Shown here: piece after piece, positions 6,270-30,692 of the stretch
Layout of the letters: every line of letters starts with the position of its first letter
Numbering within the stretch: the stretch's first letter is position 1
From: a virus
Reading direction: 5' to 3' (one strand)
IMG/VR virus record: IMGVR_UViG_3300030520_000055
Coordinates: 1 to 42,522 of that record
Length of the DNA stretch: 42,522 nucleotides
The notes under the pieces: generated by a model
Database searches by the model: none
What the model was told of the DNA's origin: nothing
Seen by the model: the letters and a program-made list of their open reading frames with translations, nothing else
Made by a program: the position numbers and the translations under genes

Positions 6270-6275
6270 GAGGCG

Positions 6276-6304: not shown

Positions 6305-6675
6305 GCCGGAAAAATTGGGAGATGGCCGCGATTTTTCTGGCAGGCATTCAAAAAATTTTTCAGCCCGCCAACCCCCCGCCCCTCCCAGATCCCGGGCTGG
6401 AAGGCTCTCACGCGCGTAGGATACACCCCGCGCGGGGGTAATAGACTCCCGCGTAGGTCGCAGGGCTCGCTGACGGTCCAGCTGTCAGGCTTCAAGGCTT
6501 GAAACCATGGGCTTGGGTTGTGGGGCCTGAAAGATTGGGACGGGCGGCGGGGCGCCTGGCAAGCGCCGCAAGGCCTCCAGCCGCCAGCGGCACAGCGCCG
6601 ACAGGGGCTATGCCCCGTGCGCATGACAGGCGTCACGCGCGACCAACCTAACACGTTGAAAACACACGCTTTTTC

Positions 6676-6822
6676 AAAACCGCAAAAACGCTAAGTCATT
6701 GATATTGAAGCCTTTTGCATTTGTGAGAATTTACAGAGTTTTCAGAAATTCCAGAATTTTCAGAAATTATGGAAATTCAAAACCCTTACAGATAAAGGGT
6801 TTTGGAACTATTTTGCGGTTTT
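6676..6822. repeat. AT-rich repeat cluster (possible origin or operator)
   Basis: AAAACCGCAAAA at 6676-6687 is matched by its exact reverse complement TTTTGCGGTTTT at 6811-6822. Between them TTTTCAGAAATT occurs twice in direct orientation at 6739-6750 and 6757-6768, 18 bp apart. Flanking inverted arms, iteron-like direct repeats and AT-richness are common in phage origins and in multi-site operators. No DnaA box was identified. Confidence 0.55.
6778..6804. promoter_or_regulatory. Perfect 10-bp hairpin upstream of the early promoter
   Basis: CAAAACCCTT (6778-6787) and AAGGGTTTTG (6795-6804) pair perfectly around a 7-base loop. The stem ends in T-rich sequence on both strands, so it could work as a two-way terminator insulating the divergent promoters, or as a protein-binding operator. 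Confidence 0.5.
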
Positions 6823-6835
6823 TCAAACTTTTCTG

Positions 6836-6863
6836 TTGACGGCTTGCGGCGCCGCTCTATGCT
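6836..6863 (+). promoter_or_regulatory. Candidate early promoter
   Basis: TTGACG at 6836-6841, a 16-base spacer, and TATGCT at 6858-6863 give a good sigma70-type promoter. It lies 27 bp before the first early gene, which has the leader GGAGACCGACC at 6879-6889. Confidence 0.65.
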
Positions 6864-6890
6864 GAACCCATCAACCACGGAGACCGACCG

Positions 6891-7106
6891 ATGACCATCT
6901 ATTGCGACCATCTCGACCCTTGCGAGGATACCGCCGAAATCAGCGGACGCGAAGCCCGCCGCCTGATCGAGGCGCATAGCCTGGACGCCAACGATTTCTG
7001 GCAGGATCACGCCGCGACCAATTGGACGGGCACGGAAGGCACGGCGATGGCCTGCCTTCGCGGCCCCGTCACGCGCGGCATGGTCTACGCATGGTTGGGG
7101 TACTGA
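6891..7106 (+). CDS. First early gene, hypothetical
   Basis: This is a 71-residue acidic protein, the first gene after the early promoter. It starts at ATG 6891 behind a strong GGAGACCGACC leader. It begins MTIYCDHLDPCEDTAEISG and ends in MVYAWLGY. A middle helix (GREARRLIEAHSLDAND) and several Trp/Tyr residues suggest a small folded protein. No family is recognised. Genes in this position in lytic phages often encode host-takeover or anti-defence proteins, but nothing in the sequence proves that here. Confidence 0.75.
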   Translation: MTIYCDHLDPCEDTAEISGREARRLIEAHSLDANDFWQDHAATNWTGTEGTAMACLRGPVTRGMVYAWLGY

Positions 7107-7109
7107 ACG

Positions 7110-7292
7110 ATGAAAATGCCCGTCTATTCCGTCTATCTGCCCATGACGAACGGCAAGCCGCAGTTCATGGGTTGGGTCCAAGCCCTTTCCGGCTTCGAAG
7201 CGCGCAAGAGCATCGCGGACACCAATCCGGGGATGCATGTGACCGACCTTTACGCCAAGCTGGCGGCGGACGACCGCGACAACCGCCTTTGA
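7110..7292 (+). CDS. Small hypothetical early protein
   Basis: This is a 60-residue protein following the first early gene by three bases. It starts MKMPVYSVYLPMTNGKPQFMGWVQALSGFEA in broken pattern terms: a beta strand, then an aromatic turn, then a helix. This strand/helix arrangement suggests a small alpha/beta fold. No family is recognised. It is followed by a hairpin in the intergenic gap. Confidence 0.75.
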   Translation: MKMPVYSVYLPMTNGKPQFMGWVQALSGFEARKSIADTNPGMHVTDLYAKLAADDRDNRL

Positions 7293-7301
7293 TGACAACC
7301 T

Positions 7302-7328
7302 TGACCGGCGGGCCCTGTCCGCCGGTCA
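7302..7328 (+). promoter_or_regulatory. Intergenic 10-bp hairpin
   Basis: TGACCGGCGG (7302-7311) and CCGCCGGTCA (7319-7328) pair perfectly around a 7-base loop. No T-run follows, so it is a poor intrinsic terminator. It may be an RNA stability or processing element ahead of the GGAGACCGAC leader of the next gene. Confidence 0.5.
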
Positions 7329-7363
7329 TAGATGCCATCTCGCATCGCTTAGGAGACCGACAC

Positions 7364-7585
7364 ATGCCACTGACCATGGAAAGCGCGCTGCGCAAAGACA
7401 AGAGCTCCGGCAAGGGTTCTCTCGAACATCGGCATTTCGCCACGATAGCGGCGATCATAACCGAAATCAGCGTTCCAGATGAAAGCTATCGCGAGACACT
7501 CGCGAAGGAATTCGCATGGTCGCTTGCCTCTACTAACCCCCGCTTCGATAAGGCTCGATTCCTGCGCGCCTGCGGGGTGGAGTGA
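7364..7585 (+). CDS. Small conserved-looking phage protein
   Basis: This is a 73-residue protein. I chose ATG 7364 because it sits three bases after the GGAGACCGAC leader (7352-7361); longer upstream starts would read through a hairpin. The C-terminal pattern STNPRFDKARFLRACGV, preceded by a helix HRHFATIAAIITEI, is a recurring signature of short proteins in proteobacterial phages, whose function I do not know. The stop overlaps the next start (TGATG). Confidence 0.75.
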   Translation: MPLTMESALRKDKSSGKGSLEHRHFATIAAIITEISVPDESYRETLAKEFAWSLASTNPRFDKARFLRACGVE

Positions 7586-7794
7586 TGGAACGCCTCCTAG
7601 CAGACATGGCCGCCACCGCGGCCCGGCTCGACCAGCGCGCGGCAGGGTACAGGATGACCGGCGAACGCCGCCTGGCGTTTGAATGCCGCACCGCCGCGCT
7701 TCACCTCAACAATGCGGCGAGGGCGTTGGGTGACGCGCTCGCCAGCGAAGACGCCGCCAAGGCGGCAAGGGAGGCAATCGATGCGGACGATTGA
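7585..7794 (+). CDS. Small Ala-rich helical protein
   Basis: This is a 69-residue, mostly helical protein with heptad-like Ala/Leu spacing (LADMAATAARLDQRAAGY, AALHLNNAARALGDALA). It probably forms a helical hairpin or a short coiled coil. ATG 7585 overlaps the previous stop; a GTG three bases upstream is an alternative. The end overlaps the start of a tiny membrane protein gene. No family is recognised. Confidence 0.7.
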   Translation: MERLLADMAATAARLDQRAAGYRMTGERRLAFECRTAALHLNNAARALGDALASEDAAKAAREAIDADD

Positions 7795-7879
7795 ACCGAT
7801 CCTGCGGGGCACGTTGATCGGCGGCCTCGTTTCGCTTTGGCTATGGTGCCTGATTTTCGGCCTGTACCATATTCTGTGA
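7781..7879 (+). CDS. Tiny single-span membrane protein (32 aa)
   Basis: This is a 32-residue ORF starting with MRTIEPILRGTL and continuing into one strongly hydrophobic stretch of about 18 residues with two Trp. It is a credible single transmembrane helix, with the positive N-terminus likely inside. A clear GGGAGG ribosome-binding site lies 5-10 bases before ATG 7781, inside the end of the previous gene. Phages often encode such peptides to act on the host membrane, for example in lysis timing, superinfection exclusion or inhibition. The target here is unknown. Confidence 0.6.
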   Translation: MRTIEPILRGTLIGGLVSLWLWCLIFGLYHIL

Positions 7880-7888
7880 TGTCCCCTT

Positions 7889-7923
7889 GGGCTGGCATGG
7901 CGCGCGAAGCGTGATGCCAGCCC
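7889..7923 (+). promoter_or_regulatory. Intergenic 10-bp hairpin
   Basis: GGGCTGGCAT (7889-7898) and ATGCCAGCCC (7914-7923) pair perfectly around a 15-base loop, in the gap before the gene at 7950. No T-run follows. It is the second long perfect stem in this early gene cluster. Confidence 0.5.
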
Positions 7924-7949
7924 GACGATGACACCAAGGAGCGATTGAC

Positions 7950-8753
7950 ATGCTGACCGAAGACAACAGCATCCGCGGCGACCGACCGACGACACGCCTT
8001 CTATGGGATGGCGTCGAGGTGGTGCGCGTCATGGGGAAACCCGGCAACAAGGCGACTGCGCTTCGCATGGGGCATGAGCACGTCTTCGCGCGCACCGAGA
8101 TCATGGGCCAAGCCCTGGCCGCGTGGTTCGTCGGACGCGGCATCGACGTCGAGCTCGAGACCATCGAGGGGCGCGACTATCTCGTTCGCGATGACAAGAA
8201 GCTCCCCGTCTACAATCTTTCGAGCACGACGCGGCTCGATCCGGATCTGAATAATATCCAGATTGAGGGAGAATTGTGGGAAAATTCCACAATTTTTAAA
8301 GGCGAGCAGGAGCGCGTCGCGACCCCTGACAAGCCCCTAGCGACGGTGGCGATCCCCTCGCCCAGGCCTTCGCCCCTTCCCGCGCGCGCCAACGCCTCGC
8401 ACACGCGCGGGCAGTTCAAGGTGCCGCCGGTGCGGGGTCGCTATTATCCGGTCTACGGCGCCCGTTTCGACGTCGCCGGTGACGAGGTGGTGATCCGCTT
8501 TCAGGATGAACCGGTCATCGCCATGGCGCCGGGCCGCGTCGAGGTCGCCCCGATCAATTTCGACAAGCGCCGCGCGCAACGTCTCGACCATCTGGTCGAG
8601 GCGCTTCCCTTGGGCTTCACCACGCGCCGGCATGGCGCTTTCACCATGCTCTCGCCTCTCCCCGGGTTCGTCGCTTCCACCGCTGACGGCGACCTCGCCA
8701 GCGATGGCGATTGGCTGGCGCTCAACCAGGCGGTGACGGTCGAGGCTTGCTAA
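7950..8753 (+). CDS. Hypothetical early protein
   Basis: This is a 267-residue protein with AAGGAG in front of ATG 7950. Residues 1-95 form one compact segment with alternating strands (TTRLLWDGVEVVRVMG, RDYLVRDDKKLPVYNL). A Pro/Ser-rich linker lies around 130-150, and a second strand-rich part (160-267) has repeated acidic/basic pairs. Inside it (8250-8300) the DNA becomes AT-rich and forms a perfect hairpin. No motif is recognised. The two-part design could be a fused pair of small domains. Confidence 0.75.
   Translation: MLTEDNSIRGDRPTTRLLWDGVEVVRVMGKPGNKATALRMGHEHVFARTEIMGQALAAWFVGRGIDVELETIEGRDYLVRDDKKLPVYNLSSTTRLDPDLNNIQIEGELWENSTIFKGEQERVATPDKPLATVAIPSPRPSPLPARANASHTRGQFKVPPVRGRYYPVYGARFDVAGDEVVIRFQDEPVIAMAPGRVEVAPINFDKRRAQRLDHLVEALPLGFTTRRHGAFTMLSPLPGFVASTADGDLASDGDWLALNQAVTVEAC
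8272..8297 (+). promoter_or_regulatory. AT-rich hairpin inside a coding region
   Basis: AATTGTGG (8272-8279) and CCACAATT (8287-8294) pair around a 7-base loop, followed by TTT. It sits in an AT-rich patch inside an otherwise GC-rich gene. It could act as an attenuator or a protein-binding site. Confidence 0.4.
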
Positions 8754-8795
8754 GCCCGAAAACTTGTTTTAAGCAGGGGGATAAGGAGACCGACC

Positions 8796-9170
8796 TTGGC
8801 CACAGATTTGGCGATATTTTCCGAGCAACTCCCCGCCGCCCCTTGGCGCTGGCGCTCCGCCTCCATCAACGGAGGCGGAGCGCGATTGCCGTCTGAGATG
8901 GCGACCTCCCACCTCTTTTACACCTTGCGCATGGTGTGGAACCATTCCATGCCGATGCAGGTTGGCCGCAATTCCAAGCGCTACTGTTTCTCTGCGAGTT
9001 ACACCCCGGCTTACATGCAGGAAGCCGTTCAGCGTCTCGGCGCCGAGCTCGCGACGCGAACGGACCTCGCTGCGTGGCAACGCTTCGAACTCGAGCAGAT
9101 GGCGCGCTATCTCCGCGGTCAACGCAAACCGATCGGGCACACGCCGAAACTGGAATCCCACCGTGGCTAA
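8796..9170 (+). CDS. Hypothetical early protein
   Basis: This is a 124-residue protein starting at a TTG directly after the GGAGACCGACC leader (8785-8795), which decides the start. The middle contains MVWNHSMP and an aromatic/basic YCFSASYTP segment. The end is a helix (DLAAWQRFELEQMARYL) with a basic tail. No family is recognised. It overlaps the next gene by eight bases. Confidence 0.7.
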   Translation: MATDLAIFSEQLPAAPWRWRSASINGGGARLPSEMATSHLFYTLRMVWNHSMPMQVGRNSKRYCFSASYTPAYMQEAVQRLGAELATRTDLAAWQRFELEQMARYLRGQRKPIGHTPKLESHRG

Positions 9171-9375
9171 GCCCATCCTCCGACGCGTCGGGGAAGACCT
9201 GTGCTTCACCATGACGCAGCTCGCGATGGAGATGGGGTATCCCCGCTCCAGCATGGGAGGTGCCGTGCGCGGGGAGAACGCGGGCAGGATGACGAGCGAC
9301 CAGCGCGAGGCGTTGGTCGCTTTTCTCGTCAAGCACCGCGAGCTGACCGACCTTTTGCTGCTGGAGCTGTTGTGA
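9163..9375 (+). CDS. Small hypothetical, possible DNA-binding protein
   Basis: This is a 70-residue protein starting with GTG 9163, inside the previous gene's stop region. The central part (MTQLAMEMGYPRSSMGGAVRG) has the helix-turn-helix rhythm of small DNA-binding proteins, followed by a Leu-rich C-terminal helix (KHRELTDLLLLELL). The DNA-binding role is only a guess. It overlaps the RuvC-like gene by four bases (GTGA). Confidence 0.65.
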   Translation: MAKPILRRVGEDLCFTMTQLAMEMGYPRSSMGGAVRGENAGRMTSDQREALVAFLVKHRELTDLLLLELL

Positions 9376-9791
9376 TCGTCATCGGCATAGACCCCGGCAA
9401 GACCGGCGCGCTGTGCGCGATGGAGGCGGGCAGGATCGTTGACCTGATCGATATGCCCGAGGACGTGCGCGCCGTAGCCCGGTGGCTGCGGCCTGCGAGA
9501 GCGTTCCTTGAGAAAGTCGGCGGGCTTCCCGGTCAATCCGCGCCCGCCGCGTTTAACTTCGGACACCATTGCGGCCAGCTTGAGATGATTCTTAACTGGC
9601 AGGTTGGGGAGCCTACACTTGTCCGCCCGCAGCGCTGGAAAGGCGACCTCCGTGTACCCCGCGACAAGAAGCTGTCGCGGGCGCGCGCCTCCGAGCTTCT
9701 ACCCGCCGAAGCCCATCGCTGGCCGCTCGTCAAGCATGACGGGCGCGCCGAAGCCGCCATGATAGCCCTGTGGGGAGAGTTGTATGGATAA
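9372..9791 (+). CDS. RuvC-like Holliday junction resolvase
   Basis: This 139-residue protein has the RNase H fold signature of RuvC-type resolvases. The first strand is IVIGIDPGKTGAL with catalytic D7, a second acidic strand is FLEKVGG with E47, and the last motif KHDGRAEAAMIA holds H122, D123 and E127. Such enzymes cut branched DNA during phage replication and packaging. GTG 9372 gives a four-base overlap with the previous gene and places the first strand at the N-terminus; longer starts would extend into the other frame. The length is close to phage RuvC proteins. Confidence 0.85.
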   Translation: MIVIGIDPGKTGALCAMEAGRIVDLIDMPEDVRAVARWLRPARAFLEKVGGLPGQSAPAAFNFGHHCGQLEMILNWQVGEPTLVRPQRWKGDLRVPRDKKLSRARASELLPAEAHRWPLVKHDGRAEAAMIALWGELYG

Positions 9792-10140
9792 GATCTACAC
9801 CACCGCATCCCAACCCCCTGTTTCGCCGACGCAGGCGGACAGGGAGATAGCTGCTGATTGGCAGACCCGGTGCGGATATGCGCCGCACGTCGTTCAAATG
9901 TTCCGAGACGGCAGGGTGGATAACTCGCCTATCGTCCAAGCCTTCGCCGCCCACCGCCAGCACGCCCGCGACGCCGGTTTTGCGCAGGGTTGGGCGAAGG
10001 CAACCGCCTGGCACAAGCACGGCATCGCGTGGAAGCACCTTGAGCGCGCCAGCCAAGACGAGCTGCTTGCAGACGCCCGGAAAGCCCTCTCCGCCGAGGC
10101 GAATGAGGGGCGTTGCGATGCCGAAGGAGGTTCGCTGTGA
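9784..10140 (+). CDS. Hypothetical early protein
   Basis: This is a 118-residue protein whose ATG 9784 overlaps the resolvase end by eight bases. It has two likely helical parts (ADREIAADWQTRCGY and AFAAHRQHARDAGFAQGWAK) and a third near DELLADARKAL. His, Trp and Gln are abundant. No known motif was found. It probably folds as a small helical protein. Confidence 0.7.
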   Translation: MDKIYTTASQPPVSPTQADREIAADWQTRCGYAPHVVQMFRDGRVDNSPIVQAFAAHRQHARDAGFAQGWAKATAWHKHGIAWKHLERASQDELLADARKALSAEANEGRCDAEGGSL

Positions 10141-14728: not shown

Positions 14729-16015
14729 ATGACCGCTCACGCCAAGTTCGGCGGCTCGTCCGCCTACCGCTGGTTGCAATGCCCCGGCAGCATCCGCCTC
14801 TCCGAGGGCATCGCCGACAAGGGCTCGTCGGTATATGCCGACGAGGGCACCTTCGCCCACGCGCTCGCCGAGAAGTGCTTGCTGGAGAGCGCGGTCGTCG
14901 CCGACGGCTATCTCGGCGTCGTGATCCCTCACCAGACGCTCGCCAGCAAGAAGCCTGTCACGCAGGAGATGATCGACGCGGTCAATGTTTACCTCGCCGC
15001 GGTATGGGCAGAGGTCGATCGCGACGACATCACCTATCTTTGCGTCGAGGAGCGCTTCGAGTTGGCGATCCCCGGCGCGGAGGGCGAGGTCTTCGGCACC
15101 AACGACGCGACGACCTTTTCCCACGTCACCGGCAAGCTGACGATCTTCGACTACAAGCACGGCCAGGGTAAGGCCGTGTTCGCCCGCGACAATCCGCAGC
15201 TCAAATTCTACGCGGCCGGCGCGGTGTCCAACCATCCCGAATGGGAGGTCAAGTCGATCGAGCTGGTCATCGTCCAGCCGCGCTGCACGATGCACGACGA
15301 GCGCGGCGGGGTTGACCGTTGGGAGATGCCGATCGACGAGCTGGTCGACTTCCCGTGGAACATAGAGGTCGCGGTCAAGGACGCCAAGTCCGACGCCCCG
15401 ACCTTTGCCGCCGGCACCCAATGCGACTGGTGCCCGGCCAAGGACGTCTGCACCGTGCGCGAGAAACTGTTCCTCGCAGCCGCGGCGCTGGAGCTGGAGT
15501 CTTTATCCCAATTAGGCCCTATGGACCTCCCGACGTTGGAGATTACCGTAGACGACATTAGAGATGAGGCAGAGCGGTTCAAAAACGTTACGCATATGGC
15601 CGCTATCTTACATGCCTACGATCTCTTCTTGACCCCATGGGTGAAAGGCATCCGCGAGAAACTCGACGCGATGGTCATGGCGGGCGACACGGTCCCCGGC
15701 CGCAAGCTGGTCGAGAAGATCGGGTCGAGGAAGTGGGTTGAGGCAAAGACCCCCGAGTTGCTCGACACGCTCGACATGTACGGCCTGCCCCTCGACGAGG
15801 CGATGCCGCGCAAGCTGCTCAACATCACCGGCATGGAGAAGGCGCTCAAGCATCTTCTCGACGTCAAGACCTTCACCCAGGCCAAGAACGACCTCACGGT
15901 CAACTTCATGGTCAAGGAATCGAGCGGCCTTACGGTCGTCGATGAAAGCGATCGACGCCCTGCGGTCGCTGCCAACGGAGACATGCAGGGCTTTGTTTTC
16001 GAGACGGAGGAATAG
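14729..16015 (+). CDS. DUF2800 protein (Cas4/RecB-like nuclease family)
   Basis: This is a 428-residue protein that begins with the DUF2800 pattern: FGGSSAYRWLQCPGSIRLSE, then EGTFAHALAEKCL, then a nuclease-like strand with D and K residues (LTIFDYKHGQGK, where DYK resembles the PD-(D/E)XK motif). A cysteine cluster near residues 232-246 (CDWCPAKDVC) suits an Fe-S or zinc site as in Cas4/AddB-type nucleases. It is usually found with DUF2815 and phage DNA polymerase, as here, and probably processes DNA ends in replication or recombination. Bases 15499-15615 are less GC-rich with rare codons. Confidence 0.85.
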   Translation: MTAHAKFGGSSAYRWLQCPGSIRLSEGIADKGSSVYADEGTFAHALAEKCLLESAVVADGYLGVVIPHQTLASKKPVTQEMIDAVNVYLAAVWAEVDRDDITYLCVEERFELAIPGAEGEVFGTNDATTFSHVTGKLTIFDYKHGQGKAVFARDNPQLKFYAAGAVSNHPEWEVKSIELVIVQPRCTMHDERGGVDRWEMPIDELVDFPWNIEVAVKDAKSDAPTFAAGTQCDWCPAKDVCTVREKLFLAAAALELESLSQLGPMDLPTLEITVDDIRDEAERFKNVTHMAAILHAYDLFLTPWVKGIREKLDAMVMAGDTVPGRKLVEKIGSRKWVEAKTPELLDTLDMYGLPLDEAMPRKLLNITGMEKALKHLLDVKTFTQAKNDLTVNFMVKESSGLTVVDESDRRPAVAANGDMQGFVFETEE

Positions 16016-16017
16016 AG

Positions 16018-16707
16018 ATGTTGATGGCAGATACGAAGATGTCGGACGCCTGGATTGCGGATATGTGGAAGAAGTTCCCGTGCCGCCCATCGCCGACCGT
16101 GGAAGGCAACTTCCTCACCGGCCCCGTTCGCCTGTCCTACCCCAAGCTGTTCGAGCGCGGTAAGGCGCGCAAGGACGGCTCGCAGGGCGACTATGGTGTG
16201 CTGGCGCTGGCCCCCGAAGGCGCCGACATTTCCCTCCTCGAGCGCGCGTGCGCGGATGCGATCATCGCCAAATGGCCGAACGCCGGTAAGCCCGGCGGCC
16301 CCAAGGTCAAGCGTGCGATCAAGGACCAGGAAGACCTCCAGGGGCGGCCCGGCACGATGGCGGGCTCGAAGATGTTCAACGCCAACGCCAAGAAGCAGGC
16401 GCCGGGGATCTTCGACCACTTCAACAAGAAACTGGAGAACCGCGACGCGGTCTATCCCGGCTGTTGGGCGATCCTCGTCGTGCGGCCCTACACCTATGAC
16501 GTCGACAACCAGAAGGGGGTCACCTTCGGCCTCCAGTCGGTCACCATCCTGCCGATCGAAGACATCGACATCGGCACGGGCACGTCGGGCTCGGCGAAGG
16601 AATATGAGGGCATGGACCTCTCGGGCTTCGCCGACCCCAATGCGGTGTTCGGGGCGGGTGGTGACGCAGGCGAGGACAAGGCCGCGCTCGACGAACTCTA
16701 CGGCTGA
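16018..16707 (+). CDS. DUF2815 single-stranded-DNA-binding-type protein
   Basis: This is a 229-residue protein two bases after the DUF2800 gene. It has the DUF2815 pattern: TGPVRLSYPKLFERGKARKDGSQG near the N-terminus in outline, a PGGP..KRAIKDQEDL middle, and AGSKMFNANAKKQAPGIFD followed by YPGCWAILVVRPYTYD. The family is linked with single-stranded DNA binding in phages. The acidic, Gly-rich C-terminal tail is also typical of SSBs. ATG 16018 has GGAGG seven bases before it; ATG 16024 is also possible. Confidence 0.85.
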   Translation: MLMADTKMSDAWIADMWKKFPCRPSPTVEGNFLTGPVRLSYPKLFERGKARKDGSQGDYGVLALAPEGADISLLERACADAIIAKWPNAGKPGGPKVKRAIKDQEDLQGRPGTMAGSKMFNANAKKQAPGIFDHFNKKLENRDAVYPGCWAILVVRPYTYDVDNQKGVTFGLQSVTILPIEDIDIGTGTSGSAKEYEGMDLSGFADPNAVFGAGGDAGEDKAALDELYG

Positions 16708-17079: not shown

Positions 17080-19136
17080 CCGTCTCCTCCCTTGATTACG
17101 AGACGCGGTCGCCCGTCGACCTGCGCGCCTGCGGGCTGTTCGTTTATTTCGAGCATCCCGCGACCAAGGCCCTGTGCCTTGCGTGGCGCGTGGGCGCGGA
17201 CAGCGTACAGGGGTGGGAGCCCGGCGACCCCGACCCCGAGCCGCTGCTCCAGTACATCCGCGACGGGGGCATCGTGCGGGCTTGGAACGTCGCCTTCGAC
17301 CGGAACTGTTGGAACACGCAGGCGCCCGCCCATTGGCCCCGTCTCCCGATCGAACAAACGGAGTGCGTCATGGCGCGCGCCGCGGTGATGACCTTGCCGC
17401 AGTCGCTGGAGATGGCGGGCAAGGTGCTCGGCGCACGCATCCAGAAGGACAAGGAGGGCGCTGCGATCATGAAGCGGCTGTGCGCCCCCATCCACACCGG
17501 CGACTGTCACGCCTGCGGCGGTGTAGGCATAGATTGCCCCGAGTGCGTCGGCGGCGTCGAGTATATCTTCGAGGAAGACCCGAAGCTCCACGCGCGCAAC
17601 CTCGCCTATTGCAAGGTCGACGTCGCCTCCGAGCGCGAGATCGACCACGCCATCCCGCGCCTGACGCCGTCCGAGCGCAAAGTGTGGATCTTGGACCAGA
17701 AGATCAATGAGCGCGGCGTCATGGTCGACGTGCCGCTGGTCCGCAAAGCGCTGGCCGCGGTCACGCTGGCAGTCGGCCGCGCCGACGAGCGCCTTGCCGA
17801 GATCACCGGCGGCGACGTCACCAAGGCGTCGCAGGCGGCCCGCCTGCTGGCATGGCTCGGTAAGCGCGGGATCGTGGCGGGCAGCATGAGCAAGGGCGCG
17901 CACGCCGAGCTGCTGGTCTGGTCCGATCTCAACGAAGACCCCGTCGCGCGCGAAGCGATCGAGCTGCGCCGCGAAGCCGGCAAATCCTCCAACGCCAAGT
18001 TCAACGCGATCCTCAATCAGGTCTGCGCCGACGGGCGCGTGCGCGGGTCGCTGCGCTACCATGGCGCCTCGACCGGCCGTTGGGCGGGGTCGGGCATCCA
18101 GCCGCAGAATTTCCCGCGCGCGGGCAAGATCGCGCAGGTCAAGGAAGCGCTCGAGATCATCCGCTCGGGGAAGACCGCCGAAGCGATCGTCGACGGCATC
18201 GAACTGGAGATCGGGCCCGCGCTCGGGCTACTCTCGCGGTGCCTGCGCGCGATGCTCATTGCAGCACCCGGCACGCGCTTCATGGGCGGCGACTATTCCA
18301 ACATCGAAGGACGAGTCAATGCGTGGTTGGCGGGAGAAGCCTGGAAGATCGATGCCTTCTCGGACTTCGACAAAGGAGTGGGCGCTGACCTTTATATTCG
18401 CGCTTATGCTGCTGCTTTCGATATACCTGAACACCTAGTCGACGACCACCAGCGCCAGATAGGCAAGGTCATGGAGCTGTCCATGGGCTACCAGGGCGGC
18501 TGGCGCGCCTTCGAGAAGATGGGCGCCAACTACGGGGTGTCGGTCGGCAAGGAGCGCGGCGAGGAACTCAAGCGCGCGTGGCGCGCGGCGCATCCGGAGA
18601 TCGAGCGGAGCTGGTACGAGCTCCAGCAAGGCGCGATCGACGCGGTGAACTACAAGGGCTCGACGGTGACCTGCCTCGACGGCAAGGTCTCGTACAAGGT
18701 GCAGGGCAACGCGCTGTGGTGCCTGCTCCCGTCGGCCCGCCCGCTGGTCTATCTCTCCCCGCGTATCGTCGAGGGGACGATATGGGACGAGGACGCCGAG
18801 GCGTTCGTGCCCACGGGGAGACCTCAGGTCGCCTTCATGGGTACGGAGAGCGCTACGAAGCGCTGGACGCTCCAGCGGCTCTACGGCGGGCTCCAGTGCG
18901 AGAACATCGTGCAGGCGACCGCGCGCGACGTCCTGGTCCACGGGATGCACGCGCTGGAAGAGGGCGGCTACCCGACGGTGCTGACCATCCACGACGAAAA
19001 CCTCAACGAGGTGCCCGACGGTTTCGGTAGCCTCGACGACTACACCGCGCGCATGGTCCGCAAGGATCGTTGGTATCGCGATCTCCCCGTCGCCGTGGCG
19101 ACGTGGGAAGGTCCGAGATATGGATTGAACAAATGA
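17076..19136 (+). CDS. Family A DNA polymerase with 3'-5' exonuclease
   Basis: This 686-residue polymerase would copy the phage genome. The exonuclease domain shows D7/E9 (DYETRS), D75 and D182. Polymerase motif A is GGDYSNIEGR (D406), motif B is RQIGKVMELSMGYQGG (R460, K464, Y472), and motif C is TIHDEN (H639, D640). Between exonuclease and polymerase, C144, C147, C154 and C157 form a CxxC-x6-CxxC cluster likely to bind zinc; textbook Pol I lacks this. ATG 17076 gives an ATGA overlap and places the exonuclease at the N-terminus. A short less GC-rich patch sits at about 18375-18440. Confidence 0.95.
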   Translation: MTVSSLDYETRSPVDLRACGLFVYFEHPATKALCLAWRVGADSVQGWEPGDPDPEPLLQYIRDGGIVRAWNVAFDRNCWNTQAPAHWPRLPIEQTECVMARAAVMTLPQSLEMAGKVLGARIQKDKEGAAIMKRLCAPIHTGDCHACGGVGIDCPECVGGVEYIFEEDPKLHARNLAYCKVDVASEREIDHAIPRLTPSERKVWILDQKINERGVMVDVPLVRKALAAVTLAVGRADERLAEITGGDVTKASQAARLLAWLGKRGIVAGSMSKGAHAELLVWSDLNEDPVAREAIELRREAGKSSNAKFNAILNQVCADGRVRGSLRYHGASTGRWAGSGIQPQNFPRAGKIAQVKEALEIIRSGKTAEAIVDGIELEIGPALGLLSRCLRAMLIAAPGTRFMGGDYSNIEGRVNAWLAGEAWKIDAFSDFDKGVGADLYIRAYAAAFDIPEHLVDDHQRQIGKVMELSMGYQGGWRAFEKMGANYGVSVGKERGEELKRAWRAAHPEIERSWYELQQGAIDAVNYKGSTVTCLDGKVSYKVQGNALWCLLPSARPLVYLSPRIVEGTIWDEDAEAFVPTGRPQVAFMGTESATKRWTLQRLYGGLQCENIVQATARDVLVHGMHALEEGGYPTVLTIHDENLNEVPDGFGSLDDYTARMVRKDRWYRDLPVAVATWEGPRYGLNK

Positions 19137-19615
19137 GCCATTGGGAGAAATCGAAGGGTGCTTCCGACGAATGGTACACGCCCGCCTATATCTTCGAGGC
19201 GCTCGGCGAACGGTTCAATCTGGACGTGGCGCACCCGGCTGTCACTCATCCGATCACGCCGTGCGGCGTTTGGTATGACGATCACGGTCTCTATCGGGAC
19301 TGGATAGGCTTCGTATGGATGAACCCGCCGTTTGGCGGTCGTAATTCCCTAGAGCGGTGGCTTCGTCGGTTCTTCGATCACGGTAACGGGATCGCGCTGA
19401 CGCCGGATCGCACGTCGGCACCGTGGTTCCGAGAAGCGTGGGGGCGCGCAGACCTAGCCTTGTTTACGCCAAAGGTGCGATTCATCCGCCCCAATGGCTC
19501 GACCGGGGATTCGCCTTCCAATGGCACAACCCTTTGGGCGTCTGGAGCCAGAGCCGTTGAGGCTCTGCGACGCGCCCGCTCTCTCGGCATCCTCGCGAAA
19601 CCGGAAAGACTATGA
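19133..19615 (+). CDS. Phage Dam-like DNA adenine methyltransferase
   Basis: This 160-residue protein has the pattern of phage DNA N6-adenine methyltransferases (Dam family): an N-terminal SDEWYTP binding motif and the catalytic MNPPFGG near residue 65. The length is normal for this short family. It would methylate adenine, probably GATC-like sites, although the recognition site cannot be read from sequence. ATG 19133 overlaps the polymerase stop by four bases. It adds a second kind of DNA methylation beside the cytosine enzyme. Confidence 0.88.
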   Translation: MSHWEKSKGASDEWYTPAYIFEALGERFNLDVAHPAVTHPITPCGVWYDDHGLYRDWIGFVWMNPPFGGRNSLERWLRRFFDHGNGIALTPDRTSAPWFREAWGRADLALFTPKVRFIRPNGSTGDSPSNGTTLWASGARAVEALRRARSLGILAKPERL

Positions 19616-22342: not shown

Positions 22343-22790
22343 GCACGCGTCGGGTCGTCTTGATGTCGTCGAGGATCGACCCGAGCTTGTCCGCGGACTT
22401 CTTCTTCATGGCGCTGGAGTCGACGCGCATCGCGGCGGTCATCATGCTCGACATGACCTGCTGCTTGGCGACCATGACCCGGATGAAATTGGCGTCGTCC
22501 TTGTCGAGGTCCATGTCCATGACCTGCTTGGCGAAGGCGAACACCTGATCGAGGATCGCGTTGAACTGCTCGGGGCGTTCGCCCTTTAGAAGGTCAAACC
22601 GGTCGCGAAGCCCATCGCCTGCAAGACCGGGATCTGCTCCTTCAAGCGGCTCCCGATGTCGTTGCGCCAGAAAGGGCTGTTCGGCATCTCGATCGTGTTC
22701 AGTATTCGATACGCGCGTGATCGCGCCCGTCGCACGGTCTCGCCTGTACCCGATGCCACCAGAACGTAGTCGCCCGCCGTCACCACGCAT
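22326..22790 (-). CDS. Hypothetical helical protein with unresolved start
   Basis: The coding-like part is the last ~90 codons (from about 22600 down): helical, with many Met, Lys and Asp residues (FAFAKQVMDMDLDKDDANF, VAKQQVMSSMMTAAM). The only ATG (22790) would overlap 205 bp of the ATP-grasp gene and gives N-terminal residues that look like a frame shadow. No canonical start exists near the ATP-grasp stop; the nearest GTG is 22544. A non-AUG start, an overlapping start or an assembly frameshift are all possible. The frame is -1 relative to the ATP-grasp gene. Confidence 0.5.
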   Translation of the reverse strand: MRGDGGRLRSGGIGYRRDRATGAITRVSNTEHDRDAEQPFLAQRHREPLEGADPGLAGDGLRDRFDLLKGERPEQFNAILDQVFAFAKQVMDMDLDKDDANFIRVMVAKQQVMSSMMTAAMRVDSSAMKKKSADKLGSILDDIKTTRRVLTHQG

Positions 22791-23914
22791 GGAACCGTCA
22801 CCACCTTCCCGTCTATATCGTGGGGCGCCTCGCCCGCCATCACCTCGCAGAAGTGGACGTTGTGCTCCATCGGCGGCTTGATACCGTAGATCGGGATGCC
22901 GGTCACCTCCTTCAACGTGAACTTGGAGAAGGGGAAATCGGGGATCGCCATCACCACGCCGATCGCGACGCTATCCATCTCGAAGGGGTTGCTGTCGACG
23001 CCGTCGGCAAGGTCGCGCAACCATTCCGCCGGGTCGCCCGCGAGGAGCGCCTGCTGGATGTTGAAGGTCGGCCAGCCGGGGCGCATGGTGAACTCCAGCG
23101 GCCACGGCGTTCCATCCTCGTCGATGATGCAGTTGACATCGCAGTAGCCGACGTACCCGATCTTCTGGAGGTGCTTCTCCATGGGCTTCAATACCAGGTC
23201 GGCCAGCTTCGACACCGCCACCACGCGGACGACTGTACCCATCTCGCCGGTCGCCGGGCCGGTATCACCTGCCATGAGCTTCTTGAATTCCCAATTCTCA
23301 TGCCAGCCCCTGTTGAACCCGTGCGGACCGAACCACCCGCCGACGGCCATCTCAACGCCCTTGACCCGCTCCTGGAGGATGAAGGCACCCTTGTGGCGCT
23401 TGGCGCGCTTCCACCGCTCCAGCATATAGACCATGTCGGCCGCGCTCTTGGCGACGTAGGTCAAGGACTTGTCCGGCTCGTCGCCGCAGGGCTTCGAGAC
23501 GAAAGCGCGGCCCTCGCGCTTCACATAGGCGATCGCGTCGTCGTAGCGGCTGAACTCCTTATAGTCCGCGACCTTGAGCCCCGCCTTCTTCATGATCGCC
23601 TGCCCCGCGTTGCGGTCCAGCTCCCACGCGGCGGCCTCCATCGTGGCACCGATGACGCGGATACCCTCGCGCTTGCGCCAATGGTCGATCATCTGGATAT
23701 GCTTGGTGTTGTCGGTCAGGAGGACGATGTCCGCCCACCGCATCCACTCCATCCAGTCGTCGACAATCTTCGACTTGGGGCCCAACATCCCCTTGCCGAT
23801 GTCGAGCGCGCGCCCGTGCCTGCGGATATACCAGCGGACTTCGTGCCCGTGGTCTTCGACCCGCCCCACCCAATCCATGCAGAAGCCGGCGGGGTCGATG
23901 ACCAGGATCTTCAT
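22586..23914 (-). CDS. PurD-like ATP-grasp ligase
   Basis: This 442-residue protein resembles phosphoribosylamine-glycine ligase (PurD) in length and layout. It has an N-terminal MKILVIDPAG strand, an ATP-grasp region with AFVSKPCG and QERVKGVEMAVGG, the PurD-like loop GDTGPATGEMGTVV, and a final active-site strand PWPLEFTMRPGWPT. The usual RFGDPE sequence is changed to RPGWPT, so the substrate may differ. ATP-grasp enzymes join a carboxylate to an amine using ATP. Here it sits in the virion gene cluster, with an ATGA overlap to the 1063-residue internal protein, so a purine pathway role is only one option. Confidence 0.85.
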   Translation of the reverse strand: MKILVIDPAGFCMDWVGRVEDHGHEVRWYIRRHGRALDIGKGMLGPKSKIVDDWMEWMRWADIVLLTDNTKHIQMIDHWRKREGIRVIGATMEAAAWELDRNAGQAIMKKAGLKVADYKEFSRYDDAIAYVKREGRAFVSKPCGDEPDKSLTYVAKSAADMVYMLERWKRAKRHKGAFILQERVKGVEMAVGGWFGPHGFNRGWHENWEFKKLMAGDTGPATGEMGTVVRVVAVSKLADLVLKPMEKHLQKIGYVGYCDVNCIIDEDGTPWPLEFTMRPGWPTFNIQQALLAGDPAEWLRDLADGVDSNPFEMDSVAIGVVMAIPDFPFSKFTLKEVTGIPIYGIKPPMEHNVHFCEVMAGEAPHDIDGKVVTVPCVVTAGDYVLVASGTGETVRRARSRAYRILNTIEMPNSPFWRNDIGSRLKEQIPVLQAMGFATGLTF

Positions 23915-26900
23915 ACGATGCTCACATGGACATGGCCGCCGGTCGCGTTCGCCGACGGGTGGTTATACTCGTCGATGACGTGCGCCGAGAAGCCCTGCGC
24001 CTTGAGGTTGCGGCGCAGCGTCGCCACGAAGTCTGCCGCGGCGGCGCGCCCTCCCTTGATCGTGAAATCCATCGCGCGGCCCTGCCCGTGGACATCGGTC
24101 GCCGGGTGGTAGAGGTCGTTCTCCGCGGTGATCTCCTTGAACCCATGGAGGCCGGTGACGTAGTCGACGATCGGTTTGAACTCGGGGCGGATGTTACCGC
24201 CACTGGTCGCACCCGGCTTGATCGCCGGCCCCTGCCGCTGCGACGGGTCCGCCCACGAGGGAGGGCCGGGCGCTGCCCATGAAGGGGTTGCGTCCGCGGG
24301 TTCCGTCGACTGCTCGCTCCGCGCCTCGCGGCGCGCGTCGCCCTTGAGCTTCGCCTTCCACTCGCGACCCTCGTACTTCTGCGTGTTGCGCGCGACGCCG
24401 TCCGGGTCTTCGAGGTAGGAGGGCGCCTGCTTCATCCCGAGGAAGTGGCCAAGTGGGCCGATCTTGCTGTTCGCGTTCGGCGCCCCCTTGCTCTCCAGCG
24501 ATATGGGCGCGCCCGCGTCGAGCAGGAACTTGCCGATGTCGACCGGGCGGTCGAGCCCCGCCTGCGCGGTGTCGGTCGTTGGCGCCACACCGCGGGGACG
24601 GACGATGGGGCGGCCGAAATAATCCTTGTTCGACCATAGCTGCATCATCGCCGACAGCGCGGGGTTGGCCTTGTTCTCGATTGCGGTCTGCGGGTCGTTG
24701 TGGAAGGCCAGCACGTCCTTCATGTACCCGGGCATCATCACGCGCTCGGGCTGGCCTTTGGCGTCCGTCCCCCCGGTCCGCGCGGCGAGATAATCCGCCC
24801 CGGTCGGTTGCTCACCCGTAGCCATGCGGGTGTAGACTCCGTTGAGCACCGCTGTCGTGGCCGCCAGCGCGCCGGCATAAGCGACCGGGTCGGTTACGCC
24901 CTTGCCACTCATGAGGCCCTTCATGCTATCTCCTAGCCCCGTGGCGGCCCCATGGGCGAGGTGCGCGGTGCCGAAGTCCCACGAGGGGGAGAGGAGCAGG
25001 AGCTGGCCCGCCTGCGTCATGGAGCGGTGCCAGAACTGGTTGTCGGTGACCATCTCGCCGAAACGGTTGTCGATGCTGTCGACGATCTTCTCGGCGACGT
25101 GCTGCGCCTCCTTGGTGGTCGCATTGGGATTGAGCTTGTACCACGCGCCCATCTCGTCGGCGAAGGCGCCCGCCTTCACGCGCGGGATGTACTCTTTGAA
25201 GATAGGCGCCATGGAGGTTTCGAGCAGCTTCGCGCCGAGCTCGATCGACTTGCCGGCCTTGCCGAGCACACCGTTGGCGTCGCCGACCGCGCGCACCGAA
25301 TCCATGAGGTCGCGCTTGAACGTGCCGCGCTTGAGCGCCTGAAAGAAGTCCGCGCTGTTCGAGTTCGAGCTGTAGAAGCGGTCCATCGTCGCCCGGCCAC
25401 CGGCCTCCGTGTACGCCTTGGCGATGCGGGGATCGAGGCCCTTCGAGATGGTCGGGTCGAGGATCTCGGATCGCAGCTTGCTCCCTGTCACCGCCTTGGT
25501 GATCGGGGAGAGGGGCGCCTTGGCGAGTTCCTTTCCGGCGGTCAGCGCCGAGCGCCCCGCGCCGCGCAGGTCGCCGGCCGCCGCTTGCCCCGGTACGCGC
25601 GAGACGGCCTTGAAGGCGTCCTTCACCCCGGAGACGATACCCTCCTGCCCCATCGTCATGGCGTGGAAAGCGGACAGCGAGAGCTTGGCCTGCGTCAGCG
25701 TGTTGGCCGCCTTGCGCGCCCCCTGGTAGACAGGGCCGCCGAGCGTCCCCTCCAGTCCCTTGGAGACGTGATTATTGTAGATGCGCGCGGCGTTCTCGGG
25801 GGCGGCCAGTACTTCGCGGGATGCCTGCGGCTTGCCGTCGGCGATGAACTTGCGAGTGCGCGTCTCGAAGGGGCTGGTCTCCGATCCGAGCCGCTTCCAG
25901 TCCGGCGGGATGGAGCGCTCTGGCACCCATTTGGCGATGCCCTTGTCGAGCATCGAGTTGCGGATGTCGTGCGTCGCGAGGAAGCTCGCCATGTTGTCGA
26001 CGTAGGCGCGCGTCGCGTCGAGCGGATTGGTGAAGACCGGGGTCAGCCCTGCCTTCAAGCCTTCCTCGTAGCTCGGGATGGTGCGCGCGCGCAAGCTGCG
26101 GCTGCTCCCCTGCACCCCACCGCCGTAGCCGGTCTTGCTCAAGGCCGTCTGCACGTCCTTGGGCGGGTTCTTCCACAGGCGCGCGTAATAGTCGTTTACG
26201 AACGCCGGCCCTCCGTTGTCGCTATCTCCGAGCACGTTTTCGATGCGAGAGCGGTAGCGCATATTGGTGTCGCGAATGGCGTCGGCGGCGGCCTGGTACT
26301 TGGAAGGGAGCTTGACCGAGCCGGTGCTGCGCGTGTCGATGTACCGCGCCAGCAGATGCTGGTCTTCGACGGGCGCGTTGCCGACCACCGACTGGAGCTT
26401 GCGCGTGTTGAGCGCGTGCATGTCGGCGTCGGCTTCGGCGCGCCTGGTCCCGATCGCCATGCGGTGCAGCGACGCGGTGTCGTGCGCCTGGCTGTCGACC
26501 CCGGCGGGGTTGAGGAACTTGCCGGCATAGGCCGAGCCTTCCTTCACGCCGCCGCTGATCTTGCTCATCAGCTTGTTGGCCCCGGACAACTCACCGAGCG
26601 GCAACGCCCCGGCGACGAGATCGGAGGCGGTACTGGCGCGTAGGCCGGTGGCGGCCTGCATGTCCCGTCCCAAGCCCGAACCCTTGATCGCGCCGCCGAC
26701 ATAGCCGATCGGCACACCCAAGGCGGACAGCGCGGTCTTACCCGCATGGAGCAAGGAGGAATCGTTCTCACCCGCCGTCTTGTGGAAATCGCGAGCGGCC
26801 TGGTTGCCTTCTTCAAGCGCGCCGGTCACCGCACCCTTGCCGGCCGCATAGAGCCGGCGAGGCGCCCCCATGATGCCGTCCTTGTGGTCGGCGGCATAGT

Positions 26901-27102
26901 CGGCACGCGCGGCGGCGCGACGCTGCGGTAGCCCCGTCAGCTCATCGACCACGCGGTCCTTGACGCCCGAGAAAAAGTCACCGACTTCCGCGAGCATACC
27001 GGGTGGCGCGCGTGAAGGCTTGGGCGGGGGCGGCGCGGGCGCGGTAGGCGCAGCCCATGCGGGGGGCGCGTCGGTCGCAGCCCAGCTAGGCTTGTCGACC
27101 AT
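23911..27102 (-). CDS. Large internal virion protein with C-terminal M15-like peptidase
   Basis: This is a 1063-residue protein. The N-terminus is Pro/Ala-rich, followed by a very long helical body with Ala/Lys repeats, as in the large ejection proteins of podoviruses. The last ~125 residues have the zinc peptidase M15-like pattern: HGQGRAMDF with H and D, and GGHVHVS with the HxH pair. This suggests a DNA-ejection protein that also cuts the peptide side chains of peptidoglycan. It starts two bases after the previous gene's stop and is coupled to the ATP-grasp gene by ATGA. Confidence 0.8.
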   Translation of the reverse strand: MVDKPSWAATDAPPAWAAPTAPAPPPPKPSRAPPGMLAEVGDFFSGVKDRVVDELTGLPQRRAAARADYAADHKDGIMGAPRRLYAAGKGAVTGALEEGNQAARDFHKTAGENDSSLLHAGKTALSALGVPIGYVGGAIKGSGLGRDMQAATGLRASTASDLVAGALPLGELSGANKLMSKISGGVKEGSAYAGKFLNPAGVDSQAHDTASLHRMAIGTRRAEADADMHALNTRKLQSVVGNAPVEDQHLLARYIDTRSTGSVKLPSKYQAAADAIRDTNMRYRSRIENVLGDSDNGGPAFVNDYYARLWKNPPKDVQTALSKTGYGGGVQGSSRSLRARTIPSYEEGLKAGLTPVFTNPLDATRAYVDNMASFLATHDIRNSMLDKGIAKWVPERSIPPDWKRLGSETSPFETRTRKFIADGKPQASREVLAAPENAARIYNNHVSKGLEGTLGGPVYQGARKAANTLTQAKLSLSAFHAMTMGQEGIVSGVKDAFKAVSRVPGQAAAGDLRGAGRSALTAGKELAKAPLSPITKAVTGSKLRSEILDPTISKGLDPRIAKAYTEAGGRATMDRFYSSNSNSADFFQALKRGTFKRDLMDSVRAVGDANGVLGKAGKSIELGAKLLETSMAPIFKEYIPRVKAGAFADEMGAWYKLNPNATTKEAQHVAEKIVDSIDNRFGEMVTDNQFWHRSMTQAGQLLLLSPSWDFGTAHLAHGAATGLGDSMKGLMSGKGVTDPVAYAGALAATTAVLNGVYTRMATGEQPTGADYLAARTGGTDAKGQPERVMMPGYMKDVLAFHNDPQTAIENKANPALSAMMQLWSNKDYFGRPIVRPRGVAPTTDTAQAGLDRPVDIGKFLLDAGAPISLESKGAPNANSKIGPLGHFLGMKQAPSYLEDPDGVARNTQKYEGREWKAKLKGDARREARSEQSTEPADATPSWAAPGPPSWADPSQRQGPAIKPGATSGGNIRPEFKPIVDYVTGLHGFKEITAENDLYHPATDVHGQGRAMDFTIKGGRAAAADFVATLRRNLKAQGFSAHVIDEYNHPSANATGGHVHVSIV

Positions 27103-28256: not shown

Positions 28257-29521
28257 AGCCCGAGATCCCCGAAGACCGTACCGCCCCCACCGGTCGACGC
28301 ACCGCCAAGCTGCCCGAGCGTGCCGAGCAGCGAACCGAGTCCGCCCATGAGGCTCGACTGGTTGTTGTACTCGGTCGCCTGATCGTCGATCTGCGTCGCG
28401 TTCTGGCCGATCCCGAGATACTGGCCGAAGCCGCTGGTGTCGGTGGCCTGCTGGCCGTTGATGCTGGTCAGCGCCGAGACCAAGGCCTGGAGCTGCGAAG
28501 ACGCCGCCGTCTGCTGGTTGTTGTAGACGTCGGCGCCGAACTGCCCCGTGGTCGAGAGCGTGTCGAGCGCCTTGCTGGCGTCGCCGACATAGTCGGAGTT
28601 GAGCGTGTTCGCATCGCTCACTCCGCTGTTGGTGAACCCCATCGACGACGTGAGCGCGGAGAGCAGGTTGCTCAATCCGGAATTGGTCGAGGTCTGCGCC
28701 GAGCCGAGCAGGGTCGCGAGGTTGTTGACCCCGGTCGACGACGCGCTGTCCATGAGCCCGCCCACGCCGGTCAGCGCCGACGTGGCACCGCCCAAGCTGG
28801 AGTTGCTCGAGCCGAGCAGGCCTTCGATACCCGTGGCGCCGGCGAGCTGGCGCGCCTGCTGCTGGTTCTGCCAGTTGAGGTTGAAGTTCGTCGCAGCGTC
28901 GGACGCCTGCCCGGCGGCGAACGGCGAGCCCGCAAGACCAGCCGCCGCCGACTGCGCCTTGCTGGTGTCGGTCGCGGTCTGGAGCTGCTGGTTGTAGAGG
29001 GCCGACTGCGGGTCATAGCCGCTCTGGACGAGGCTCGGGATCAGCGAGTTCGCGGTCTGCGCATTCTGTCCATAGGCCGCCATGATCTGCGGCAGGTAGC
29101 TCGCCCCGGCGTCGTAGACGCCATTGGCTTGGCCGACCGCCGTCGGGGCGTAGCCGGCCGCCGCGCCAGCCAGGGCGTTGGACGTGTTCGATGCGCCGAC
29201 GCCCGCACTGGTCGCCGCTCCGGAAGAGGCCGACGCTTGCCCGAGAATGCCCGGGATGAGGTTGGCGAGGCCGGTCCCCAGCGACGTCTCGTTCCCCGCG
29301 GTCGCGGCACCCTGCGTCGCGACGTTCTGCGCGCTGGTGAGAGCCTGCGAATAATAGGGGTTGTTGAGCGTGTTGTTGTAGAGGCTGGAGAAGCCTTGGT
29401 TCGCCGTATTATAGAGGCTGTTCATATTCGCGGCGTTGGTCGACAGCCCCGAATAATACTGCTGATCGGCGCCTGCCTGGTTCGCAGGCTGGTATGCCAT
29501 CGGCGCGTCGCTACCACCCAT
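28253..29521 (-). CDS. Asn/Ser/Ala-rich virion protein
   Basis: This is a 422-residue protein with low charge and abundant Ala, Ser, Gly, Asn and Gln, in helical and Gly-rich stretches (SALYNQQLQTATDTSKAQSA). This composition is typical of podovirus internal or ejection proteins. ATG 29521 overlaps the GNAT stop (TGATG); a GTG three bases upstream is also possible. No enzyme motif was found. Confidence 0.75.
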   Translation of the reverse strand: MGGSDAPMAYQPANQAGADQQYYSGLSTNAANMNSLYNTANQGFSSLYNNTLNNPYYSQALTSAQNVATQGAATAGNETSLGTGLANLIPGILGQASASSGAATSAGVGASNTSNALAGAAAGYAPTAVGQANGVYDAGASYLPQIMAAYGQNAQTANSLIPSLVQSGYDPQSALYNQQLQTATDTSKAQSAAAGLAGSPFAAGQASDAATNFNLNWQNQQQARQLAGATGIEGLLGSSNSSLGGATSALTGVGGLMDSASSTGVNNLATLLGSAQTSTNSGLSNLLSALTSSMGFTNSGVSDANTLNSDYVGDASKALDTLSTTGQFGADVYNNQQTAASSQLQALVSALTSINGQQATDTSGFGQYLGIGQNATQIDDQATEYNNQSSLMGGLGSLLGTLGQLGGASTGGGGTVFGDLGL

Positions 29522-30000
29522 CACAGCAACCTTGAATAGACGTCCTCGTCGTGACGATAGCCCATGCGGGCCAGCATGTCACCTATGGTCGAGGTCTTGG
29601 CGTGGCCGACCATGACGTGTCGCTTCGAGCGGTACATGACCTTCTCGACGCCGAGCTGCTTCAAGAGCTGCTCGGTGCCCCGGACAAGTCGAACGCCGGC
29701 AAACCCCCGCTCGTCCCGATCCAAGAAGATGACATCGTTCACCGCATGAATCGTATGGCGGTAATGAATGTGGGGCGTAACGTGGAAGGCATTGTAGCCG
29801 ATCAGCCTCCCGTTCTTCCGCAGCGCTGCGGTCCATAGAACCTCTTCCCTCTGGAGACGGAAGGCACGCTCCCAATCGGGAGCGAGCGGGATCTCCATCT
29901 TGTCGCACGCGACCTCCTCCCAATGCGCCGCGAGAAGGTCTTCCACGCCATCGTCGAGAAGCTGCTGGAGCGGCTCCCAATCAAGCGTCAGGCTGGGCAT
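29521..30000 (-). CDS. GNAT-like acetyltransferase
   Basis: This is a 159-residue protein with the general GNAT layout: an N-terminal helix pair, strands around VLWTAALRKNGRLIGYNAF, and an acetyl-CoA-binding-like segment DERGFAGVRLVRGTEQLLKQLG, followed by VEKVMYRSKRH. The classical Q/RxxGxG/A loop is only partly kept. Small GNAT-like proteins are frequent near podovirus ejection genes, and their substrates are unknown. It overlaps the 71-residue gene by 20 bases. Confidence 0.65.
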   Translation of the reverse strand: MPSLTLDWEPLQQLLDDGVEDLLAAHWEEVACDKMEIPLAPDWERAFRLQREEVLWTAALRKNGRLIGYNAFHVTPHIHYRHTIHAVNDVIFLDRDERGFAGVRLVRGTEQLLKQLGVEKVMYRSKRHVMVGHAKTSTIGDMLARMGYRHDEDVYSRLL

Positions 30001-30196
30001 AGCGCTTCTCGGCGACCGCGATCGACAGCATCATCATGACATGGGCGGCGGTGGTGTCGTCGCGACTGTCGACCCCCGACAGGCTCTTCTTCGCCGCAAT
30101 GCCGAGTTGCTCCGTTGCCGAGCGATGCAACCATCTGACGATGGCGTTTTCGGCGGCGTCACGCTTCGAGCGCGACGAGGGCTTCGGCGTCGTCAT
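29981..30196 (-). CDS. Small basic hypothetical protein
   Basis: This is a 71-residue basic and helical protein (SSRSKRDAAENAIVRWLHRS, VMMMLSIAVAEKRYA). A good AAGGAG site precedes ATG 30196, and both ends overlap neighbours. It has no known family. It may be a virion or DNA-associated protein, but there is no direct evidence. Confidence 0.65.
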   Translation of the reverse strand: MTTPKPSSRSKRDAAENAIVRWLHRSATEQLGIAAKKSLSGVDSRDDTTAAHVMMMLSIAVAEKRYAQPDA

Positions 30197-30692
30197 CGGT
30201 TTCTCCTTGGTCAGGGGAGACCAACTCTGTCACCAATTCGACCAGCGGGCAAGGCCCGAGGTTGATCGCCGAGTGCAGGATGCGATGCTCGACCAGGAGC
30301 AGGTTGCCGACGGCCGGGCAGATGCTCATGCCTCCCGAGAACAGGAACCCACCCGGAGACGGGTTGAGACAGATATGGACGCGATGCACCGGCGCCGGAT
30401 CGGTATGCCAATCGATGCGCCCGCCAGGCGCGATGCTGCGCACGAAGACATCGCCGAAGCTCGGCGCCCTATTCCCGAACAACGGAGCGGCCTCGTTGCG
30501 GAGCCTCGTGAGAAAACCCTTCGCGGCCTTCCACGGCTTGTCGTTCTCGACGTCGCGCCCCTCGTGCCGCAGCCAGAAGTGCCGTACATCGTGGTCGACA
30601 ACGTCGCGGCTGTCGACCATGTCCTTCGCGAATATCATCGTGAAGGAACCCGACAGCCGCGCTACGTCGAGGAACCCAAGTGGTCGGATCAT
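30159..30692 (-). CDS. 2-oxoglutarate/Fe(II) hydroxylase, Asp/Asn beta-hydroxylase-like
   Basis: This is a 177-residue protein with the jelly-roll pattern of aspartyl/asparaginyl beta-hydroxylases: GRIDWHTDPAPVHRVHICLN (H96, D98, R104, H106) and later LLLVEHRILHSAINLG (H136 or H140 as second metal ligand). It would hydroxylate a side chain using 2-oxoglutarate and oxygen. It is short for this family and probably catalytic domain only. The ATG overlaps the stop of a 55-residue gene (ATGA), suggesting coupled production. Its target is unknown; a virion protein or the small partner are candidates. Confidence 0.75.
   Translation of the reverse strand: MIRPLGFLDVARLSGSFTMIFAKDMVDSRDVVDHDVRHFWLRHEGRDVENDKPWKAAKGFLTRLRNEAAPLFGNRAPSFGDVFVRSIAPGGRIDWHTDPAPVHRVHICLNPSPGGFLFSGGMSICPAVGNLLLVEHRILHSAINLGPCPLVELVTELVSPDQGETDDDAEALVALEA

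Follow-up and report, generated by a model that had tools for sequence, protein, structure and literature searches.

A PurD-like ATP-grasp ligase with replaced substrate residues in the late operon of uncultured phages

The window, that is, the whole stretch of DNA analysed here, is a 42.5-kb virus record (42,522 nucleotides) with no terminal repeats of 10 nt or more. The minus strand comprises genes for a portal-like protein (7-2094), a terminase (2098-4149) and a capsid protein (40079-41422), together with tail/adaptor and ejection-type genes, and the plus strand comprises DNA polymerase, helicase, primase, nuclease and lysozyme genes. Within the replication module, a DUF2800/PD-(D/E)XK nuclease gene (14729-16015, plus strand) adjoins the gene of an Enc34-type ssDNA-binding protein (16018-16707, plus strand). 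Of the late-operon genes recognized in the window, the last but one encodes a PurD-like ATP-grasp ligase, and the genes and features that bear on its interpretation are the following:

22586-23914, minus strand: PurD-like ATP-grasp ligase gene, recognized by its open reading frame, Pfam and TIGR00877 matches and a fold model
23911-23914, minus strand: ATGA stop/start overlap, exactly 4 nt, between the ligase gene and the upstream large-protein gene
23911-27102, minus strand: 1063-residue late protein, a probable internal virion/ejection protein, with a sub-threshold match to LPD38 (polyvalent protein)
29521-30000, minus strand: GNAT acetyltransferase-like late gene (weak match to phrog_1249, sub-threshold match to Pfam Acetyltransf_1)
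30159-30692, minus strand: Asp/Asn β-hydroxylase-like late gene, sub-threshold here and clear in the relative L034
22326-22613, minus strand: small conserved gene of the late operon, read in the -1 frame across the ligase gene's 3′ end; its start is uncertain
19070-19615, plus strand: Dam-like DNA N6-adenine methyltransferase gene (PF05869, E = 4e-8), the only DNA-modifying gene seen

The ligase gene lies on the minus strand, which the initial annotation had not named, with the coding region running from 23914 to 22589, the stop codon at 22588-22586 and no internal stop. Its 442-residue product is GAR-synthetase-like, bearing out the earlier description of a full-length ATP-grasp protein; the PurD-type loop then described, AGDTGPATGEMGTVVR, is found at residues 215-230, and RPGWPT, reported in place of the usual RFGDPE, at residues 278-283. 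The protein matches (i) the Pfam domain GARS_A, PF01071, with an E-value of 6e-11; (ii) the Pfam domain GARS_C, PF02843, with an E-value of 2.5e-8, just under the cut-off of that model; and (iii) TIGR00877 (purD), with 95.5 bits, about a third of the 288 bits that this model requires of an equivalog. Family members score 70-95 bits on the same model, compared with 482-628 bits for the cellular PurD enzymes of a phylum sample. No PHROG family matches the ligase, and a sequence-profile search of the PDB gives clear E-values for GAR synthetases alone, the lowest being 2e-22 using the family profile. The Pfam, TIGR00877 and PDB matches, the hundreds of homologues and a dN/dS of about 0.2 or less in diverged family pairs show that the open reading frame does not arise by chance; judging from these ratios, the family is under purifying selection.

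The predicted fold (model m26e230a5b075, for which 74 family members were used; mean pLDDT 95.2, pTM 0.92) is that of a full-length GAR synthetase, the model aligning with solved GAR synthetases over 377-396 residues with Z-scores of 31-35 and rmsd values of 3.0-4.3. PurK and PurT are the next-nearest solved folds (Z 23-24) but lie clearly further away, with 10-15% identity and a different C-terminal region, and the closest viral structure in BFVD reaches a TM-score of only 0.41. The modelled fold and the conserved nucleotide and phosphate residues in the alignment place the protein in the ATP-grasp superfamily. Compared with PurD, the phosphoribosylamine-glycine ligase, the phage ligase displays the same full-length domain order and fold, the ATP- and phosphate-handling residues, the carboxylate arginine, the RxDIG motif at the C-terminus and the GD.GP.TG..G frame of the loop; nevertheless, it shows 20-24% identity, forms a separate clade, sits among phage late genes rather than purine genes, and carries other residues at the glycine-ammonium positions, at the metal Asn and in the GGREH and GPE motifs of the N-domain. 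Other phage-encoded ATP-grasp ligases of unknown substrate, discussed following Iyer et al. 2009, include the ATP-grasp/amidoligase clusters of Pa11-like phages (PMC6209634) and the R2K ligases of jumbo phages (PMC7824862), which belong to other ATP-grasp subfamilies.

The roles of the PurD residues are taken from one computational paper (PMC8880213) and from general ATP-grasp knowledge, and were mapped by HMMER alignment. That paper names K103, K143, E185, E192 and K214 (Aquifex numbering) as ATP residues and D212, R287 and E292 (A. aeolicus numbering; D214, R290 and E295 in E. coli) as glycine residues. The corresponding segments of the phage ligase, in its own residue numbers, are:

23873-23896, minus strand: residues 7-14, N-domain loop DPAGFCMD versus GNGGREHA in PurD, with REH lost in all members
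23708-23713, minus strand: D68-N69 versus P72-E73 of the PurD GPE motif; D68 in 143/148 and N69 in 147/148 members
23237-23269, minus strand: residues 216-226, loop GDTGPATGEMG, corresponding to the GPNTGGMG loop of PurD; E224 and G226 invariant in 148/148
23066-23095, minus strand: residues 274-283, EFTMRPGWPT versus EFNxRFGDPE in PurD; E274 and R278 kept, N replaced by T276, D by W281 and E by T or L at 283

Residue conservation was counted in 148 family members and 35 cellular PurDs, and is given here in E. coli numbers. E102, K145, G192, E194, K216, G228, G231, E286, R290, P294, R416 and D418 are invariant in all 148 members, a set to which belong the ATP residues that PMC8880213 names for PurD, and K153 is kept in 144 of them. 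Seven replacements, K105R, E187Q, D214E, G229E, A232T, Y271D and N288T, are likewise fixed in 148/148, and D293 is replaced by W in 138/148. Of the three glycine-binding residues, R290 is thus retained throughout, whereas D214 is always E and E295 is T or L. The N-domain motifs GGREH and GPE, which we take to bind phosphoribosylamine and which are present in 35/35 or nearly all of the cellular set, are replaced family-wide. The Asn of the E-x-N-x-R metal motif, T in the phage family, is not known from PurK or PurT either. Judged from the alignment, the family has retained the core of phosphoryl transfer together with the carboxylate arginine and has rebuilt the N-domain motifs, one metal ligand and the pocket for the glycine ammonium group, a replacement pattern that looks like a substrate change and not like simple decay. 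The changes, which extend well past the RPGWPT motif first pointed out, are shared in fixed form by the whole family. The sequence comparison does not reveal the close resemblance to cellular PurD, complete active site included, that the initial annotation had named as the sign of ordinary purine synthesis.

Two successive profile scans of IMG/VR gave 440 related contigs and at least 461, respectively, of which the 80 best per scan were retained; these figures count contigs, many of them closely related, and not independent lineages. Among 50,697 phage records there is one true relative, the circular metagenomic genome MW202796.1 (44% identity), and most of the other tblastn matches that carry a phage label, at 20-30% identity, probably represent ordinary PurD of the host within prophage or bin records. 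The genomes of GTDB species display matches on four MAG contigs only, three of these MAGs carrying a full PurD besides and the fourth a truncated PurD at a contig end. A pattern scan for cellular-type PurD found 17 viral contigs, a number not strictly comparable with that of the family profile scan. In a quick tree, the phage ligases, 43-70% identical within the family, form one clade set against the PurD clade (SH-aLRT 100), with about 6 changes per site between the two. The family is common in uncultured phages of soil, peat and freshwater and almost missing from reference phage collections, and our literature search found no paper on PurD-like ligases of virion operons.

The late-operon place, whose retention among homologues had been raised as a point to check, is widely kept: a same-strand open reading frame of at least 500 residues lies directly upstream of the ligase in 91 of the 113 loci with 2 kb of upstream sequence, and 41 of these 91 relatives display the exact ATGA overlap. 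In the window itself, the coupling claimed by the initial annotation is exact, and its description of the partner as a large internal virion protein is plausible. The 1063-residue protein as a whole has no Pfam match; in the relative L099, the large protein directly upstream of the ligase (5568-10001) matches ART-PolyVal (ADP-ribosyltransferase of polyvalent proteins; E = 6e-16), and in L128 a protein further upstream matches a "DNA ejection" PHROG. The C-terminus of the 1063-residue protein (about 24220-23914, minus strand) carries an M15/LAS-peptidase-like HxxGxAxD...HxH motif; since this motif is confined to the nearest relatives, the peptidase was rejected as a general functional partner of the ligase. 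The upstream large proteins split into several sequence clusters, with the ligase conserved throughout. Elsewhere in the operon, a GNAT gene is found at the equivalent place in 49 relatives, and an Asp/Asn hydroxylase gene shares the operon in 18. The gene at 30159-30692 is another possible protein-modifying enzyme of the virion operon.

Relatives were also sought by terminase and capsid, so that their choice did not depend on the ligase. Of 12 near-complete relatives obtained in this way, 8 carry the ligase and 4 lack it, and in the latter the large-protein gene is followed directly by the small late gene (132-138 residues), coupled by ATGA or GTGA. Since the small gene takes over the coupling in these four genomes, the ligase gene represents an optional cassette, flanked by two late genes that are themselves conserved. 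This variable occurrence is easier to reconcile with an accessory enzyme than with an indispensable component of assembly, and says nothing on substrates; within an otherwise conserved late operon, it provides natural with/without pairs for seeking the ligase product. The ligase-free relatives L294, L295, L296 and L301 (G075, G071, G072 and G074) represent the natural empty site.

The gene probably encodes an active PurD-derived ATP-grasp carboxylate-amine (C-N) ligase, re-specified in phages, made late and not devoted to purine synthesis. With the ATP-burning core kept and the PurD substrate residues swapped, the enzyme probably joins two other molecules and is not countable as a purine gene; the PurD lineage, the fixed substrate-residue changes and the late place all support the initial suggestion that it may ligate another acid or amine. 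Catalysis would comprise (i) binding of ATP and Mg between the two ATP-grasp lobes; (ii) formation of an acyl-phosphate, as a carboxylate bound at R278 receives the γ-phosphate; and (iii) attack on this intermediate by an amine placed on the N-terminal domain, yielding an amide, ADP and phosphate, the carboxylate substrate being other than glycine and the amine other than phosphoribosylamine. Since the cassette is inserted after the gene of the large ejection-type protein and before the small late gene, synthesis of the ligase is expected to be late and translationally coupled to that of the large protein; what the enzyme makes would serve late infection or the virion. With both PurD pockets swapped, we tentatively propose that this phage-only family makes a new amide, for example a modified co-translated ejection protein or a late small molecule.

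One possible special case of this chemistry, not exclusive of it and put forward with similar reserve, is a reaction directed at the virion, in which an amino acid or small acid is joined to a virion protein such as the upstream large one, or the ligase itself is packaged and ejected. The direct ATGA coupling, the GNAT and hydroxylase neighbours and the polyvalent-type domains upstream (LPD38, sub-threshold, and ART-PolyVal) all point this way, and the virion peptide considered in the initial annotation is compatible with the late place; on the other hand, a single shared target is not obvious when the upstream proteins fall into several clusters next to a ligase conserved at 43-70% identity, and close relatives without the ligase retain the same neighbours. 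To our knowledge, the enzymes of the PurD lineage act on small molecules. An altogether different reading, that the protein is a former enzyme serving as a structural or nucleotide-sensing late protein, draws on the replacement of N288, usually a metal ligand, by T and on altered ATP contacts such as K105R, through which activity could be lost. Such exact fixation of residues is unusual for a dead enzyme, and the invariance, in 148 diverse members, of the E, K and R residues at the centre of phosphoryl transfer, together with strong purifying selection, renders this reading quite improbable.

That the gene simply raises nucleotide supply by making GAR, as PurD does, is unlikely, even though PurD accounts for all of the closest families and solved structures. 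The family-wide loss of the glycine-ammonium and N-domain motifs and the low scores on the purD model speak against it, as do the late place, away from the replication genes, and the lack of accompanying purine genes, no purM or purF being found in 27 near-complete ligase contigs searched for these two. The initial annotation had also proposed a modified base precursor, i.e., the coupling of an amino acid to a modified nucleotide, and ligases of other kinds do take part in phage thymidine hypermodification. We regard this as very improbable here: the ligase sits with virion genes and not with replication genes, and a non-exhaustive scan of the early open reading frames disclosed no thymidylate-hypermodification gene, the Dam-like methyltransferase being all that was seen.

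The preferred reading, a C-N ligase with substrates other than those of PurD, bears on viral gene annotation, since automatic pipelines would label the family purD and thereby enter it under the purine metabolism of viruses. Virome studies list purD or GART among viral auxiliary metabolic genes (PMC11097641, PMC12043954, PMC11360552), and some of the genes so annotated may belong to the phage ligase family; where these papers list them, they are read as purine synthesis, with no active-site inspection accompanying the call. Given the replaced PurD substrate residues, viral purD and GART calls need an active-site check, and the fixed replacements clearly predict that the phage ligase does not make GAR.

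In 81 of 148 loci, the small late gene is found in the -1 frame, across the terminal (3′) part of the ligase gene. Its product is helical and has no PHROG or PDB match. A programmed -1 frameshift joining this domain to the ligase was rejected, as there is no conserved slippery heptamer, and is not needed, the gene being separate with its own start in the four ligase-free relatives; its presence in those relatives also led us to reject it as a dedicated peptide substrate. In most loci, a canonical start near the conserved part is absent, and the most suitable canonical candidate in the window is the ATG at 22790. Suggestive of a start, though not conclusive, is an ATG formed 204 nt before the stop by CCA-TG at ligase codons 375-376: this arrangement occurs in 20 of the 36 loci that carry the small domain and have Pro-Cys there, CCA accounts for 12% of Pro codons, and synonymous change is lowered at ligase codons 367-382.
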